Shown in pieces: positions 21,259 to 38,545 of a DNA stretch of 64,000 nucleotides (its first letter is position 1; every line of letters begins with the position of its first letter). This DNA is from Chitinophaga sancti (GTDB taxonomy: Bacteria; Bacteroidota; Bacteroidia; Chitinophagales; Chitinophagaceae). Position numbers and translations under genes: made by a program. Below the pieces are notes generated by a model. It was not told where the DNA came from and searched no databases. It saw only the letters and a program-made list of their open reading frames with translations. The stretch lies in the NCBI RefSeq assembly GCF_034424315.1, contig NZ_CP139972.1, positions 5,022,001-5,086,000 on the forward strand, written 5' to 3'.

Positions 21259-21412
21259 GATCATCCCGGCTGGCACTTAAGGCTGGTGATGCCTCAAAAA
21301 TAGAGTTGAGCCCGGAATGATCCGTATATAAGCCGTAGATAACCCGCCTCTTTAAAGATGCGGGTTATCTACGGCTTATAGGCGGGTTATTGGCGGGTTA
21401 TCTGCGGGTTAT
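21259..21412. repeat. Large palindrome and GCGGGTTAT repeats
   Basis: A perfect 21-bp inverted repeat (21327-21347 with 21360-21380) encloses a 12-nt loop. Its right arm begins a run of the 9-mer GCGGGTTAT at 21360, 21382, 21393 and 21404, the last three spaced by 11 bp, one helix turn. An imperfect inverted repeat (21259-21271 with 21310-21322) precedes it. This occupies the gap between the small membrane gene and the 592-aa gene. It could be a terminator for the former, a protein-binding array controlling the latter, or a repeat element. The remaining 200 bp of the gap shows nothing I recognise. Confidence 0.6.
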
Positions 21413-21634
21413 CTCCCTTTTTGAACAGGCGAAGCCCGATGTTGGGCCGGCAAAAGGCCCCTGCCAGTAAGTGATAAGTACAACGAATCATTTGGGGAGG
21501 TGGTCAATAGTAAGAAAATCCAAGTTGCAACACCAAAAAAGCAAATTCAAATCAGTAAAAACATCTGAGCGACATCAGTCAGGGAACTGCTCACCGTCAG
21601 TTATCTGGCAAAAATATCTGGTGAACTTTACCTT

Positions 21635-30489: not shown

Positions 30490-30578
30490 GCAGCCGCTGA
30501 ACTTTTGCCTACGGCAAAAGTTCAGCGGCTGCGCGAGCGGGGCAATGATGCAGCAGCTTAGCGCAGTTGCATCATTGC
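30490..30578. terminator. Bidirectional terminator between GH3 and kinase genes
   Basis: A perfect 20-bp stem (30490-30509 with 30513-30532) with a 3-nt loop is followed by a second hairpin (30540-30551 with 30567-30578) that overlaps the end of the minus-strand kinase gene at 30558. The genes converge here. Confidence 0.75.
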
Positions 30579-31808
30579 CTCGCTTTGTTTTACAGGAATA
30601 CCGATTACGAAGGTGGCACCTTGCTCTAATTCGCCAGAGGCCGTGATAAACCCATTGTGCTGTTCCATAATTTTTTTACAAATAGAGAGCCCGATACCAG
30701 TACCCTCTATCTCGTGGTAACTATGCAGTCGTTTAAACACGATGAAAATATCCTCGGCATACTGGCTCTCAAAGCCAATCCCGTTATCAGTAATAAAGAT
30801 CTTGTACAAATGACTATTTGAATCCTGCGGCACTTCTTTCTGTGCATAAATATGCACTTCAGGTGCTACATCCTTCTTCCTGAACTTGAGTGCATTGCTG
30901 ATGAGGTTATAAAACAGCTGCCGCATCAGGGTAGGGATCACCTGTATAGAGGGCAACGGATCTATCTTTATAATCGCATTATTCTGCTGGATCTTTATCT
31001 CCAGCTCATTCAATGCGTCGCGTACGATCTCATTCAGATCAGCGTCTATAAAATCTCCTCCCTGTATAGAATGACGGGAGAAACGGAGTAAATCGCTCAC
31101 CAGCTGCTGCATGCGAATAGTGGCATTCGTGATCTTCATCACATACTTATTCACTTCATCGCTGCTGCTCTTTTTCTGAATAATCATATCGCTGAACACC
31201 CTGATCTTGCGGAGTGGCTCCTGCAAATCATGTGATGCGATATAAGCAAACCGGTCCAGTTCTGCATTCACCGCTTTCAGGTGAATATTGTTTTGCAACA
31301 ATTGTTTGTTCAGCTCCAATACTCTCAGTTCCGAGGCTTCTCTTTCTTCTATTTCCTTTTGTAATGAAGCGTTGGCATTTAGTAGTTTCTGTTCCTGTGC
31401 AATGAGTGATTGTGTTTTTCTGTACAGCTCTACAAACAGGCCTACTTTAATACGCAACAACTCCGGGTTAATTGGTTTATAGATGAAATCGACAGCACCT
31501 GCCTTATAGCCCTTGAAGATCACTTCTTCTTCATGGCTATGGGCTGTAATGAATATGATCGGAATATCTTTTAACTTTTCGCGCTGATATATGAAAGCGG
31601 CTGTTTCAAAACCATTCATGTCAGGCATCTGTACATCCATCAGGATCAGGGAAAAATCAAATTCCTTTAACAGGATCTTCAATGCAGCTCTTCCGGAGTT
31701 TGCTTTGACGATGATATAGCTTTCCCTTTCCAGTATGGATTCAATTGATAAGAGGTTATCCGGCCGGTCATCAACTACTAATATTTTTATGACATCGTGG
31801 TGCTGCAC
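30558..31808 (-). CDS. REC-domain histidine kinase
   Basis: A 416-aa cytoplasmic protein: receiver domain at residues 6-125 with phospho-acceptor Asp58 (LILMDVQMPDM) and Lys in YKPI; a coiled-coil linker (about 130-180); HisKA with His193 in YIASHDLQEPLRK; and a HATPase domain with the N box (NALKFR), DNGIGF and GTGIGLS boxes. It has no transmembrane segment, so it probably receives a phosphoryl signal at its own REC domain from another kinase. The kinase module is close to that of the five-PAS kinase at 42689-45493. It lies 61 bp downstream of the ten-HAMP kinase on the same strand and is probably co-transcribed with it. Confidence 0.92.
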   Translation of the reverse strand: MQHHDVIKILVVDDRPDNLLSIESILERESYIIVKANSGRAALKILLKEFDFSLILMDVQMPDMNGFETAAFIYQREKLKDIPIIFITAHSHEEEVIFKGYKAGAVDFIYKPINPELLRIKVGLFVELYRKTQSLIAQEQKLLNANASLQKEIEEREASELRVLELNKQLLQNNIHLKAVNAELDRFAYIASHDLQEPLRKIRVFSDMIIQKKSSSDEVNKYVMKITNATIRMQQLVSDLLRFSRHSIQGGDFIDADLNEIVRDALNELEIKIQQNNAIIKIDPLPSIQVIPTLMRQLFYNLISNALKFRKKDVAPEVHIYAQKEVPQDSNSHLYKIFITDNGIGFESQYAEDIFIVFKRLHSYHEIEGTGIGLSICKKIMEQHNGFITASGELEQGATFVIGIPVKQSEAMMQLR

Positions 31809-31869: not shown

Positions 31870-34800
31870 TTAACGGTATAACCATACTCTCATCAATGAT
31901 AACAGCTGATCTATCTTCAATGGTTTTGTAATATAATCTGAAGCACCGGCTTCCAGGCATTTCTCTCTATCACCCTTCATCGCCTTCGCTGTCACTGCTA
32001 TGATCGGCAATGCACTGTTCTTATGTTCCCTGCGAATTTTCTGCATCGTTTCATATCCATCCATCTCCGGCATCATAATATCCATCAGCACTATATCGAT
32101 CTGGTTATTCTCGCTGAGAATACTCATCGCTTCCTTGCCACTCTCTGCCGTAATGGTATTGATATGGAAACGCTCAAAAGCTGTAGTCAGGGCAAACAGG
32201 TTACGCACATCATCATCTACTACCAGTACACTTTTATGGATCAACACATCTTTTTGAGAACGCAGATCTTCTATCAGTTTCCTTTTCTCCGGCATCAATG
32301 ACTGGTGGTTCAGGTGCAATTGCATGATCGTTTCTTCGAGCAGTAAGTCCAGTGAGTTAACGCCTTTCAGCAATATTTTATTGGCATACTGCTTCAGTTT
32401 AGATTTTTCATTGTTGCTAAAGTCACGCGCAGAATATACTATAACTGGTGTCGCATTATATCGGTTCACCGTATTCAATCCTGCCACAAAATCTGCACCA
32501 TCTATATCCGGCAGCATGTAATCTGCGATGATACAATCATAATTATTTTTATTGATCGCATCAATCGCTGATTTTCCATTATCTACAAATTCCATTTCTA
32601 TTAATTCCCCATTGTCCAGGATACGGGCGATCTGTGATGCATCCGGCTCATTGTCTTCCACCACCAATACTTTCTTGGTCCTGCGCTCATGCTGATCAAT
32701 GATATTGCTGAAAAGAACATTCAATGCCTCTGACTTCAATGGCTTCAGGTTAAAGCTACGTGCACCGCGATGCATAGCCAGCAACCTGTTCTCTTCACCA
32801 GAGATGAGGTGAATAGGGATATGCCGCAGGTTGATATCATTCTTGAAGAGATCCAATACGCGCCATCCGCTGGCATCCGGCAATTTCACATCCAGTGTCA
32901 CCGCAACCGGATTGAACTTATTCGTGAGGTCGAACACCTCGCCAAAGCTGGTAGCGACCACCACCTTCAATCCCATTTCATGGGCCTTTTCCTGCATGAT
33001 CTTCGCAAAGCGCACATCATCTTCCACAATCAATACCACCTTGTCAGTATCCATGATATGCGTTCTGTCATCACCTATCTCGTTGATAATCTCATTCAGT
33101 CCTTCCAGGTCTTTGGCTTCACTCGTTACCCGACTTGGTATCATTGGTGGCTCGTAGGGCTGCGGCATGGTATATTCACCTACAGTCAGGCTGCTTTGCT
33201 TTTCTTTCCTGATCACACCTGGATTGTAATCCAGTGGCAGGAAGAGGGTGAAAGTACTACCCTTGCCAGCTTCACTCATCAACTCAATAGAACCACCCAG
33301 GAGGTCTGCCAGGCCACGGCTGATACTCAATCCCAGGCCGGTACCACCATACTTACGGCTGGTAGACCCTTCTGCCTGCTGGAATGCTTCGAAGATGATG
33401 TTCTGTTTATCTTTAGAGATACCGATACCTGTATCCCTGATCTCAAATGCCACCACTTTAGAAGCACTATCCAGGCTGTCATTCTGTTGTTTCCAGTTAT
33501 GCCGGGCTTCGTAAATACGAAGTCTTACCTCACCTTTTTCTGTAAACTTGAATGCATTGGAGAGCAGGTTCTTCAGGATCTGGTTCAGGCGCTGCACGTC
33601 TGTTTCCAGTGTCTGCGGCAGCTGATCATCCATTTCAATCCTGAAGCGCAGGTTCTTGCTTTCAGAGATATGTTTGAAGGTAGTTTCCACAAATCCAATC
33701 ACTTCATTGAAGCGAACCTTGATAAAGTCAGTAGAAATATAACCAGATTCAATCTTAGACAGATCGAGGATATCGTTGATCAGCTGGATCAGGTCATCCC
33801 CACAACTATGAATGGTCTTCGCATATCGCACCTGTTTTTCATTCAGGTTACCATCATGGTTTTCGTATAATTGCTGTGCAAGGATGAGCAGTGAGTTCAG
33901 CGGTGTACGCAGCTCATGCGACATATTTGCCAGGAATTCTGATTTGTATTTGGATGTGAGCTGGAGCTGTTCTGCTTTTTCTTCCAGTGAACGACGGGCT
34001 TCTTCTACTTCTTTATTCTTGTCTTCCACCTCGTCTTTCTGTTTCACCAGCAGGTGGGCTTTATCCTGCAGCTCTTCATTTGTACGTCTCAGCTCATCTG
34101 CCAGTGACTGTGATTGTGCCAGCAGATCTTCTGTACGGGAGTTAGCTTCGATGGTATTTAATACGATACCAATTGATTCTGTGAGCTGACTCAGGAAGTC
34201 AAGGTGTGTTTCACCAAAGGCATCGAAGCTGGCCAGTTCTATCACCGCCTTGATCTCTGTTTCAAAGAGCACCGGCAGTACGATCAGGTTCATTGGTGGA
34301 GCTTCCCCTAAACCGGAACTGATCTTAATATAATTAGAAGGTACGTTTGTGAGTAAGATACGTTCTTTATCGAGGGCTACCTGTCCTACCAGACCTTGCC
34401 CCAGTGAGAATTCGCGGCTGATGCTTTCTTCTTCGCCATATGCATAGGAAGCAAAGAGTTTCAATTTAGGGTTCTCCAGGTTCTCTTCCTGTTCCAGTAT
34501 GTAGAACATCCCTTTCTGTGCCCGCACCACCCGCGCAAGTTCTGAAAGGATACGGCGGGTCACGGTATTCAGATCTTTCTGCCCCTGCAGCATTTGTGTG
34601 AACTGTGCAAGGTTCGATTTCAGCCAGTCCTGCTCCTGGTTACGGAGGGTAGTTTGCTTCAGGTTGGCGATCATCTGGTTGATGGTATCTTTCAGTTCTT
34701 CCACCTCACCTTTCGCTTCTACACGGATCATCTGGGTGAGGTCACCTTTCGTTACCGCAGAGGCCACGGCACTGATGGCACGTACCTGGGTAGTGAGGTT

Positions 34801-37800
34801 TTCTGCCAGCTGGTTCACGTTTTCCGTCAGGTTTTTCCAGATACCAGAAGCACCTGGTACACTTGCCTGTCCGCCCAAACGCCCTTCCACGCCCACTTCG
34901 CGGGCCACCGTAGTAACCTGGTCAGCAAAGAGTGCAAGGGTATCGATCATTTCATTGATCGTATCTGTCAACTGTGCAACTTCACCACGCGATACGATAG
35001 AGAGCTTTTGCTTCAGGTTACCGGTTGCTACGGCAGTTACTACTTTCGCAATACCTCGTACCTGGTTCGTGAGGTTAGAGGCCATCATGTTTACAGAGTC
35101 GGTAAGGTCCTTCCAGGTACCGCCCACACCCTGCACTTCGGCCTGACCACCGAGTTTACCTTCGGTACCTACTTCACGCGCAACACGCGTTACCTCTACG
35201 GAGAAAGAGTTCAGCTGGTCCACCATCGTGTTGATGGTATTTTTCAGATCAAGGATTTCTCCTTTTACGTCGATCGTTACTTTTTTGGTAAGGTCACCAC
35301 TCGCCACGGCCTTGGTTACTTCCGCGATGTTACGCACCTGGGAAGTCAGGTTACCTGTCATCTGGTTTACAGAGTCTGTCAGATCTTTCCAGGTACCAGC
35401 AACGCCTGGTACGAATGCCTGACCACCCAGTTTACCATCTGTACCTACTTCTCTCGCAACACGCGTTACCTCAGAGGCAAAGGCGCGCAGCTGATCCACC
35501 ATCGTATTGAGGGTTTCTTTCAGCTGTAAGATCTCCCCGCGTACATCCACCGTGATTTTGCGGCTCATGTCACCATTTGCTACAGCGATGGCCACATCAG
35601 CAATGTTACGTACCTGTGCTGTCAGGTTACCCGCCATCTGGTTTACAGAGTCAGTTAAATCTTTCCAGGTACCTCCCACACCCGGTACGTTTGCCTGGCC
35701 ACCCAGTTTACCTTCAGTACCTACTTCTCTCGCCACACGCGTTACCTCGGAGGCAAAGGCGCGCAGCTGTTCCACCATCGTATTGATGGTATTTTTCAGT
35801 TCAAGGATTTCCCCTTTTACATCTACTTCAATTTTACGGGAAAGGTCTCCATTCGCTACTGCGGTTGTTACTTCCGCGATGTTTCGTACCTGCGATGTCA
35901 GGTTGGAGGCCATGATATTTACAGAGTCAGTTAAGTCTTTCCACAAACCTTCTACACCAGGTACATCTGCCTGGCCACCCAGTTTACCTTCAGAACCTAC
36001 CTCTCGCGCTACCCTGAATACTTCACTACCAAAGGCGTTCAGCTGGTCCACCATCGTATTGATGGTATTTTTCAGTTCAAGGATTTCCCCTTTTACATCC
36101 ACTGTTATTTTGCGGGAGAGGTCACCTTTTGCCACCGCAGTGGTCACTTCCGCGATGTTTCGTACCTGTGCTGTCAGGTTAGAACCCATCTGGTTTACTG
36201 ATTCAGTGAGGTCCTTCCAGGTACCACCTACACCCTGTACTTTTGCCTGGCCACCCAGCTTACCTTCTGTACCTACCTCAAGGGCTACACGCGTTACCTC
36301 AGAAGCGAAGGAGTTCAGCTGATCCACCATTGTATTGATGGTCTTTTTCAGTTCAAGGATCTCTCCTGCCACATCCACGGTGATCTTTTTGGAGAGGTCA
36401 CCGTTTGCCACCGCAGTGGTTACTTCAGCGATATTACGTACCTGACCTGTCAGGTTACTGGCCATCTGGTTTACAGAGTCCGTCAGGTCTTTCCAGGTAC
36501 CTCCCACACCCTGCACTTTTGCCTGACCACCCAGTTTACCTTCCGTACCTACTTCAAGGGCTACACGCGTTACCTCGGAGGCGAAGGAGTTCAGCTGGTC
36601 CACCATCGTGTTGATGGTGTTTTTCAGTTCAAGGATCTCACCTTTTACATCCACGGTGATTTTGCGGGAAAGGTCACCTTTTGCTACCGCAGTGGTTACT
36701 TCCGCAATATTTCGTACCTGTGCTGTCAGGTTAGAACCCATTTGGTTTACAGATTCTGTGAGGTCTTTCCATACACCATCTACACCTTTTACGGTAGCCA
36801 GACCTCCCAGCTTACCTTCGGAACCTACTTCACGGGCTACGCGCGTTACCTCGGCAGAGAAGGAGTTCAGCTGGTCCACCATCGTGTTGATGGTGTTTTT
36901 CAGTTCAAGGATCTCTCCTTTTACGTCCACGGTAATTTTGCGGGAGAGGTCACCTCTCGCCACAGCAGTGGTCACTTCAGCGATGTTTCGTACCTGGCCT
37001 GTCAGGTTACTGGCCATCTGGTTTACAGAATCGGTCAGGTCTTTCCAGGTACCGGCTACCCCTTTTACTTCTGCCTGACCACCCAGTTTACCATCAGTAC
37101 CCACTTCTCTCGCAACACGCGTTACCTCGGAGGAGAAGGAGTTCAGCTGGTCCACCATGGTATTGATGGTATCTTTCAGTTCAAGGATTTCCCCTTGTAC
37201 ATCTACAGTAATTTTTTTAGAGAGGTCACCTTTTGCCACCGCAGTGGTTACTTCAGCGATATTTCGCACCTGGTCAGTAAGGTTACCTGCCATCTGGTTT
37301 ACAGAATCGGTCAGGTCTTTCCATACACCGGCTACATCTTTTACTTTGGCCTGTCCACCCAGTTTACCTTCAGAACCTACTTCGCGGGCTACGCGGGTTA
37401 CTTCGAGAGTAAAGAGATTCAATTGCTTCACCATGCCATTTACCTCAGTAGCAATACGGGCAAATTCTCCCTGCAGTACGTGATCCTCAATTTGTAAGGG
37501 CATTTCCTGGGAGAGATTACCTTTTGCCACGGAGCTGATTACATGGGCAATTTCGATGGTAGGATGAACCAGGTCAGAGATCAGGTTATTGATGGATACT
37601 TCTGCCATATTCCACGAGCCTCTGGCTGTGCGAGGCATTTGTACCCTGTGTTGGAGCTTCCCCATTTTCCCGATCGTATTCCGGGCCAGCATGAGTTCTT
37701 CCACCAATGTTTCGTTGAGAGCAATAATATCGTTGACGGTATCGCAGATCTTACCGTTTAACCCAATATTATCTGCCGGCATCCGGACAGTGAAATTACC

Positions 37801-37962
37801 ATTCTTTACTTCGGAAAGGACCTGTAATAACTGGCGCATATCCAGTTCATCGACGACACTATCGGCCGCACTGTTGGACATTTTTGGGGAAGGCTGTAGA
37901 GTATTTTCCACATCCGGTTCAGGCAAGGGTGTGGTGTCAGAATTTTTCTTCCGGGTGTTCAT
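31870..37962 (-). CDS. Soluble hybrid histidine kinase with ten tandem HAMP-type units
   Basis: A 2030-aa protein without membrane segments. Residues 1-187 hold degenerate HAMP-like helices, and residues 188-1107 hold ten units of 92 aa, each starting [13 protein letters not shown] and containing [19 protein letters not shown] and [23 protein letters not shown] domain follows (about 1125-1285), then a coiled coil, HisKA with His1349 ([11 protein letters not shown]), a HATPase domain, and three receiver domains ([35 protein letters not shown]). This is the Nik1-type group III layout with extra units; in fungi such HAMP arrays sense osmotic stress. The partner is probably the divergent single-REC protein at 38129 or the REC kinase downstream. 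Sensing signal unknown. Confidence 0.95.
34642..37401 (-). repeat. Ten 276-bp tandem repeats inside the HAMP kinase gene
   Basis: Ten in-frame units of 92 codons (276 bp) form the HAMP array. Units 3 and 5 (counted from the protein N-terminus) are almost identical after the [13 protein letters not shown] segment, and units 2 and 4 share the MASNLTGQ form, so a two-unit block of 552 bp appears to have been duplicated or converted. The tandem repeats also produce long open frames on the opposite strand, which are not genes. Confidence 0.9.
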
Positions 37963-38128: not shown

Positions 38129-38545
38129 ATGCAATTTTCAGGCCATTCGAAGCGGCTTATCCTGTTAGCTGAAGATGATATTGATGATCAGGAATTACTC
38201 GAAAATGCATTTAGTGAAATAGATCCTACCTGGCAGCTGGTGTGTATCCCTAACGGCAGAAAATTCATTAAATATCTGGAAAGTATTGAGGACAAAGAAT
38301 TACCAGCCTTGATGATTCTCGACTATAATATCCCGGAACTGACAGGAGTAGAAATTGTAGAAGAACTCAACGACCAGTCGCGCTATCTCGGTATTCCTAA
38401 AATCATCTGGAGTACATCCAGTTCTCCGGTTTTTAAAGCTCGTAGTATTGAGCTGGGGGTGGTTGATTATATCACTAAACCCAGTGACCTGGCTTCTTTT
38501 TTAACCATTGCAAAATATATGTTGTCATTTGTGAAAGAGTCATAA
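38129..38545 (+). CDS. Single-domain response regulator
   Basis: A 138-aa receiver protein with Asp65 (LMILDYNIPELTG), the acidic pair at EDDIDD, and Lys in TKPSD. It has no output domain. It is transcribed divergently from the ten-HAMP kinase with a 166-bp shared upstream region, so it may relay phosphate from that kinase or from the REC kinase beyond it. This is the Bacteroidota CheY-like/Rcp1-like type often encoded beside PAS or HAMP kinases. Confidence 0.92.
   Translation: MQFSGHSKRLILLAEDDIDDQELLENAFSEIDPTWQLVCIPNGRKFIKYLESIEDKELPALMILDYNIPELTGVEIVEELNDQSRYLGIPKIIWSTSSSPVFKARSIELGVVDYITKPSDLASFLTIAKYMLSFVKES

Follow-up and report, generated by a model that had tools for sequence, protein, structure and literature searches.

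In Myxococcus xanthus, the kinases AskA and AskB, like Amb07 of Sorangium, are described as soluble proteins that join an extended poly-HAMP region to a kinase core and several receivers, with AskA and AskB placed in fruiting-body development together with MrpC and FruA (PMC7643160). For OsaA of Streptomyces coelicolor, too, a hybrid kinase of large size is described that has over ten HAMPs, lacks a membrane helix and forms a pair with a neighbouring receiver protein, OsaB (PMC9739842). Here, we analyse a gene of this kind in Chitinophaga sancti, found in a stretch of 64,000 nucleotides (the window) from a genome that is a single contig of 8.42 Mb. The gene, one open reading frame (ORF) at 31870-37962 on the minus strand, encodes a poly-HAMP hybrid histidine kinase of 2030 aa. 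Its product is a cytoplasmic bacterial kinase of the AskA/AskB-OsaA kind, a likeness to AskA and AskB of layout rather than of letter-for-letter comparison, and as such it is a known kind of protein. What is moderately new is the evolutionary behaviour of its HAMP array, whose units keep a strict register, a fixed kinase-side end and a number that is nearly constant within a genus, while the inner units share short stretches of sequence within a genome in a way that likely reflects recombination between them.

A repeat search recovered ten copies at 276-nt steps, corresponding to ten in-frame 92-aa units over aa 188-1107 (34642-37401), with boundaries as read in the original prediction for this DNA. 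Pfam marks ten HAMP and eleven HAMP_2 stretches, together with GAF_2, HisKA, HATPase_c and three Response_reg stretches, the receivers following the HisKA-HATPase_c pair. On the same strand, the array is followed by the GAF domain (PF13185, aa 1129-1268, 34159-34578) and the kinase core (aa 1340-1578, 33229-33945), in which the H-box SHELRTP, from aa 1348, and the N, G1 and G2 boxes were found. Receiver 1 (32698-33042) and receiver 2 (32308-32673) have approximate bounds set by eye, and receiver 3 (aa 1912-2023, 31894-32229) is the best PF00072 stretch. By simple hydropathy there is no convincing membrane helix, the top 19-residue window (1.63, aa 1226-1244) holding four charged residues and lying within the GAF domain. 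The earlier description of the protein as lacking a membrane helix, with one GAF, one kinase and three receiver domains, therefore agrees with both Pfam and hydropathy. We saw no second poly-HAMP protein in the genome among 126 matches, with 150 of 170 candidates scored, because apart from the gene itself no match extends into the part before aa 1055.

Fungal group III kinases have a single receiver and are not known to carry a GAF domain. With its ten units, GAF domain and three receivers, the window protein departs from Nik1 in repeat count, receivers and GAF; fungal Nik1 is a distant parallel, Nik1-like in working, and we do not class the window kinase as group III. Nevertheless, the resemblance to group III put forward in the original prediction is borne out by the domains and the 92-residue spacing. 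In CaNik1, each 92-aa repeat is described as a concatenated HAMP pair, and CaNik1 and DhNik1 carry five to six such repeats ahead of a hybrid kinase, where the window protein has ten, plus its GAF and three receivers; loss of repeats is reported to alter the output or to lock it, constitutive output resulting from deletion of four of the five repeats in DhNik1 or of all repeats in CaNik1 (PMC3848655). On the combined evidence of the sequence and these papers, the 92-aa unit of the window protein would be a HAMP pair, and if so its ten units would amount to about twenty HAMP domains. A further described system is Pseudomonas aeruginosa Aer2, in which divergent soluble HAMPs are also stacked end to end and alternating HAMP conformers that send opposite signals have been proposed as a relay, although Aer2 differs in having a chemoreceptor output, a haem-PAS sensor and five HAMPs (PMC3570549), and matches the window protein only weakly in sequence (E 0.00042). 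Two solved chains named 'histidine kinase,Gcn4p' align by sequence with the N-terminal part, PDB 9trk with aa 24-321 (E 2.3e-109) and 9trj with aa 24-229 (E 1.8e-58), and represent a solved fragment of a close relative that covers the N-terminal region and first units only.

Register, fixed end and selection on the array

Of 989 intervals between successive units, 987 measure 92 residues (first interval excluded, a few genomes counted twice). At the N-terminal side, a search with a unit profile places an extra, weaker unit upstream of the ten in most relatives; in the window protein this unit spans aa 96-187 (37402-37677), with HAMP_2/HAMP stretches in aa 114-182. In 92 of 107 ORFs, the first interval between units is 97 or 98 residues long, and in 13 it is 92 residues. 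At the kinase side, the two types that close the window's array, units 9-10 (34642-35193), also close it elsewhere: among 73 non-Chitinophaga loci whose C-terminal end is intact, 70 have a final unit of type 10 and 69 have type 9 in the position before it, the exceptions being L122, L125, L136, L146 and L162. Inner units, in 28 chosen loci, match several types and vary in number.

The array is also the most conserved region of the protein. Across 14 orthologues within the genus (the seven-unit G024 left out), mean amino-acid identity to the window protein is 97.5% in the array. Next come receiver 3, the most conserved receiver (95.0%), the kinase core (92.1%), the GAF domain (86.8%) and receiver 2, the least conserved receiver (78.0%), while aa 1-95 (37678-37962), at 65.0%, are the least conserved part measured. 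Since silent codons are no more alike in units 1-8 (agreement 0.561) than in the kinase core (0.550), this conservation reflects selection on the protein, and a low mutation rate in the array was rejected as its cause.

Each unit has moreover kept its own protein identity. Of 290 units from 29 species, these being the species retained out of 30 once a near-identical array had been removed, 287 have as their nearest neighbour by protein the unit of the same number from another species. The same holds for 198 of 198 units in 18 of the 22 matching genomes of a second genus, g41 (perhaps Flavobacterium), and for 99 of 99 in Bradyrhizobium.

Probable exchange between inner units

At silent sites, different units of one genome agree with each other beyond codon usage. 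To quantify this, we took the agreement of different units within a genome minus that across genomes, and subtracted same-amino-acid agreement at non-homologous columns as a control for codon usage. For units 1-8 in 15 species, this silent excess is +0.071; omitting any single cluster keeps it at 0.064-0.078, and with one species per cluster it reaches +0.089. It is +0.049 for all ten units in 29 Chitinophaga species, +0.022 in the 18 genomes of g41 and +0.015 in nine Bradyrhizobium. Pair 4/5 has the strongest excess in the genus (+0.136 in 15 species, +0.111 in 29), pair 9/10 is near zero (+0.012), and the excess drops with the distance between units (Spearman -0.50, p 0.007, over 28 non-independent pairs); in g41, the top pair is 7/11, which are not neighbours. 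Exact runs of at least 50 nt between different units, which reach 77 nt inside genomes, were found in the 15 species in 26 of 1350 ordered within-genome comparisons, against 0 of 18900 across genomes, while the corresponding counts for Bradyrhizobium were 46 of 990 and 98 of 7920. Furthermore, lineage-specific changes match another unit of the same genome in 30.5% of cases, compared with 21.0% when that other unit is taken from different genomes. Setting the best own unit directly against the median orthologue (148 of 150) is biased, since the best own unit is the maximum of nine, and the codon-usage-controlled comparison was used instead.

In the window's clade, a likely footprint of exchange can be followed at the level of single residues. 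Units 1-8 are 76-90% identical among themselves in protein and 74-86% in DNA, and the earlier claim was that 2/4 and 3/5 are near copies in alternation. Taken as whole units, 2/4 (88.0% aa, 84.8% nt) and 3/5 (90.2% aa, 85.5% nt) are too divergent for that description, and stand beside 4/5 (90.2% and 84.4%), 1/2 (87.0% and 84.1%) and 2/8 (85.9% and 84.1%); as a general rule the pairing also fails, since in 24 of 30 species of the genus the two units most similar to each other are 4 and 5. The alternation does hold over unit columns 29-52 (about 72 nt), where DNA identity is 92% for 2/4 as well as for 3/5 and 81-82% for 2/3, 3/4 and 4/5. Outside these columns, units 3 and 4 retain their own types.

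Unit 3 reads EGSE at columns 32, 38, 39 and 50 in five of 30 species (G000, G014, G031, G032 and G718, the last being locus L199); this is the unit 5 type, found there in 25 of 30, and unit 3 most often reads DAGD (15 of 30). Of the five, G032 is the one species outside the window's clade. Similarly, unit 4 reads AG at columns 38 and 43 in only four of 30 species (G000, G014, G031 and G718), which is the unit 2 type in all 30, where unit 4 itself reads GA in 20. As the arrays of G014 and G718 are 99.6% alike, three lineages rather than four carry the exchange. Judged from the majority reading, its direction would have been from unit 5 to unit 3 and from unit 2 to unit 4. The controlled silent excess points the same way in G000, the window's genome, where 5/6 ranks first of 45 pairs (+0.181), 2/4 second (+0.167), 3/5 third (+0.157) and 4/5 ninth (+0.117). 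The 2/4-3/5 alternation is thus real, in that it is beyond chance, but it is specific to a clade and about 72 nt long. Taken together with the silent sites, which agree within a genome beyond codon usage, this argues that recombination between units is the likely cause of both patterns, and to this extent the original prediction that the units have been homogenised is upheld.

Several observations weigh against this conclusion. With 29 species, the contrast in exact runs shrinks to 30 of 2610 comparisons within genomes and 30 of 73080 across them, as expected if close species have old tracts in common. Recent tracts are short, with runs of at least three derived sites that match an own unit seen in 20 of 1008 cases, where 9.8 were expected. 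The erosion of orthologous silent identity that recombination predicts for units 1-8 was not clearly seen, the orthologue silent excess over codon usage being 0.094 in units 1-8, against 0.103 (units 9-10), 0.126 (kinase core) and 0.097 (receiver 1). In addition, some of the within-genome excess could stem from a genome's codon-pair habits, most of all where it is small, as it is in g41 and Bradyrhizobium.

This last point leads to the alternative that survives best, although we hold it to be unlikely: that the silent-site likeness reflects a shared choice of codons in a shared context, as when codon pairs or the mRNA are constrained over a peptide that recurs, without recombination. The units do have most of their peptide sequence in common, and both the small excess in g41 and Bradyrhizobium and the lack of clear erosion are what such a constraint would leave. 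On the other hand, it does not sit well with pair 9/10, which lies in the same gene and shows so little excess, with the decay of the excess over distance, or with exact runs as long as those found within genomes; and the clade-specific amino-acid changes that copy another unit go beyond what codon choice can do. We therefore keep recombination between units as the reading of choice. A literature search, made with a broad term that also matched 'hampered', gave no paper tying HAMP arrays to concerted evolution among the matches listed.

The array as a putative signalling rod

It appears probable, taking the evidence as a whole, that this is a kinase of the AskA/AskB-OsaA kind that combines a rod relay with a partner protein and with rare recombination inside the array. 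The repeated HAMP pairs of two chains would come together in a single long, parallel rod of helices, whose state might be set at the N-terminal end or anywhere along it, and the rod would hold the kinase in the state so set. The signal may be relayed by alternating HAMP conformers and a helix on the GAF side into the HisKA dimer, from which phosphate would first reach the three receivers and then the receiver-kinase partner encoded downstream. The array has the 92-residue register and the fixed kinase-side end (units 9-10) described above; in this model, its inner units would trade short segments with one another through recombination and would on rare occasions be lost or gained, whole and in frame, with purifying selection preserving most of each unit's protein identity.

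A bolder version, which we put forward only tentatively, is that the rod is a length-quantised conductor of signals: most units would have a selected role of their own, the last two would serve as a near-universal coupler, the inner ones would form a zone of accordion-like change and exchange, and their number would be set in each lineage by rare recombination, so that seven- and ten-unit orthologues might differ in set-point or gain. The findings bear on why some kinases carry so many stacked HAMPs, since they describe a rod that exceeds the kinase core in conservation and unites a 92-residue register with near-universal last two units and exchanging inner units.

The array might instead be a DNA-binding or scaffolding region, as has been suggested for AskB, which is reported to bind the mrpC promoter in vitro (PMC7643160). 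Pfam matches like SpoIIID (aa 397-423) and HTH_6 (aa 265-291), of the kinds reported for AskA and AskB, are indeed present in the window protein. However, they include 0 stretches that pass alone, as would be expected of weak scores summed over repeats, which is probably what they are, and they sit inside HAMP units. In another genus (locus L171), moreover, an array of this kind leads into a chemoreceptor signalling domain. A role for the array in binding DNA or in scaffolding therefore seems a slim prospect, and a signalling rod remains the better description.

Unit number, a proposed block duplication and neighbouring genes

The original prediction had also proposed that a two-unit block of 552 bp was duplicated, so that units 4-5 (36022-36573) would be a whole copy of units 2-3 (36574-37125). 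In the window genome, this pair of blocks does come first among 36 two-unit block pairs (85.1% nt, the next reaching 84.2%), and the middle stretches of units 2-3-4-5 alternate in the window's clade. As a whole, however, the blocks are just 85.1% alike, neither unit 3 nor unit 4 departs from its type outside columns 29-52, and the same ten-unit order is present in the other 14 species compared and, one to one, in Ginsengibacter and L156. Across the 15 species, the top block pair is 3-4 with 4-5 in eleven, 2-3 with 4-5 in three and 1-2 with 3-4 in one; restricted to non-overlapping blocks, it is 2-3 with 4-5 in six, 1-2 with 3-4 in six and 1-2 with 4-5 in three. A whole-block duplication is thus largely refuted and very improbable, and what is left of it is the short exchange.

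Turning to the number of units, a first set of 59 genomes held the gene in 16 of 36 genomes of the same genus, the window's included, of which 15 have ten units and G024 has seven. Genus-wide, it is present in 33 of 79 species, 30 with ten units, two with seven (G024 and G723) and one, G714 (L215), with the array split over three ORFs and so not countable. The units of G024 best match units 1, 3, 5, 6, 8, 9 and 10, its third unit combining parts of 4 and 5. Ten units are probably the ancestral state, since each of units 1-10 has its own counterpart in Ginsengibacter (L083) and L156, and also in G091, where unit 3 is weaker. In g41, 22 of 249 genomes match, of which 20 have 12 profile units and G630 has 13, while the array of G607 is cut by a contig end; all nine Bradyrhizobium/Bradyrhizobiaceae loci have 11 units by motif. 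Among the named relatives, for which the best 80 loci of a longer match list were taken (11 incomplete, 69 complete), the complete loci have 7 to 15 profile units, with 12 the commonest number (31 loci).

The number of units is therefore nearly constant within a genus and changes rarely, in whole units, between genera. The idea that the count may change over time is correct on long time scales only and as regards whole units, which fell from ten to seven in one lineage of the genus and range from 7 to 15 in named relatives, although within a genus the count is nearly fixed. The finding named beforehand as one that would speak against the original prediction had two parts: the first, an identical unit number in close relatives, is what we observe, with ten units in 30 of 32 countable arrays, whereas the second, a lack of excess likeness in 2/4 and 3/5, is not. 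Assembly errors in repeats are a most improbable source of the seven-unit form and the other differences in count, for although the assemblies of G024 and G723 are drafts in about 20 and about 570 contigs and the G714 array is broken, G024 and G723 are different species with 3-6% of bases different per unit and an identical set of seven units, the window's genome is one contig, and silent collapse of repeats is unlikely where the window's units 1-8 differ by 14-26% in DNA. The natural change from ten to seven units inside one genus offers ready natural variants for studying HAMP stacking. We also noted that the array of G448 (L164) is interrupted by a stop codon; in G448 and G714 alike, decay or sequencing error both fit. 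The gene itself is patchy, being found in 33 of 79 species of the genus and 22 of 249 g41 genomes, yet highly conserved in sequence where present.

A gene of 416 aa with receiver, HisKA and HATPase domains (30558-31808, minus strand) begins 61 nt past the kinase stop and is the kinase's neighbour in each of the 15 relatives examined from the genus. AskC, a receiver-bearing hybrid kinase, is likewise reported directly downstream of AskB, and in a two-hybrid test the third receiver of AskA met the receiver of AskC (PMC7643160); OsaB, in contrast to the window's partner with its HisKA-HATPase, is described as a receiver with a coiled coil (PMC9739842). A kinase with a downstream receiver partner is in any case the layout of AskB-AskC and OsaA-OsaB as given in these papers. 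By translated search in the 76 named loci with enough sequence, a receiver starts at most 400 nt after the kinase stop in 55, in 32 of which a kinase part is recognisable by the window's partner. Against a general pairing, no receiver gene starts that close in the remaining 21 of the 76 loci. As a control, a receiver match was found in the 2.2 kb upstream in 8 of 68 loci, of which those in L130, L149 and L154 (46-52% identity) look like the partner in an upstream position. In the Streptomyces relative L162, which encodes 1836 aa and has an array end that is not of the 9-10 types, a receiver gene is adjacent, and from size and layout this protein is presumably an OsaA.

On the other side of the kinase, a divergently transcribed single receiver of 138 aa (38129-38545, plus strand), recognised by Pfam, has matches beside the kinase at 55-99% in 12 of 15 relatives, a 28% match in one and none in two. 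In five loci of other phyla, the poly-HAMP kinase is followed by a CheR methyltransferase gene (L122:14768-15607, L094:13891-14745, L115:14555-15433, L101:10985-11803 and L146:14723-15592), with a receiver match next, and it is possible that these neighbours provide methylation-based adaptation of the kinase. At L171:3541-7986, where the chemoreceptor signalling domain takes the place of the GAF-kinase part, a CheW gene is adjacent, and L172 and L173 are similar to L171 in length. Finally, elsewhere in the window, a tandem 11-bp repeat of 5.1 copies with 80% matches lies at 21359-21414.

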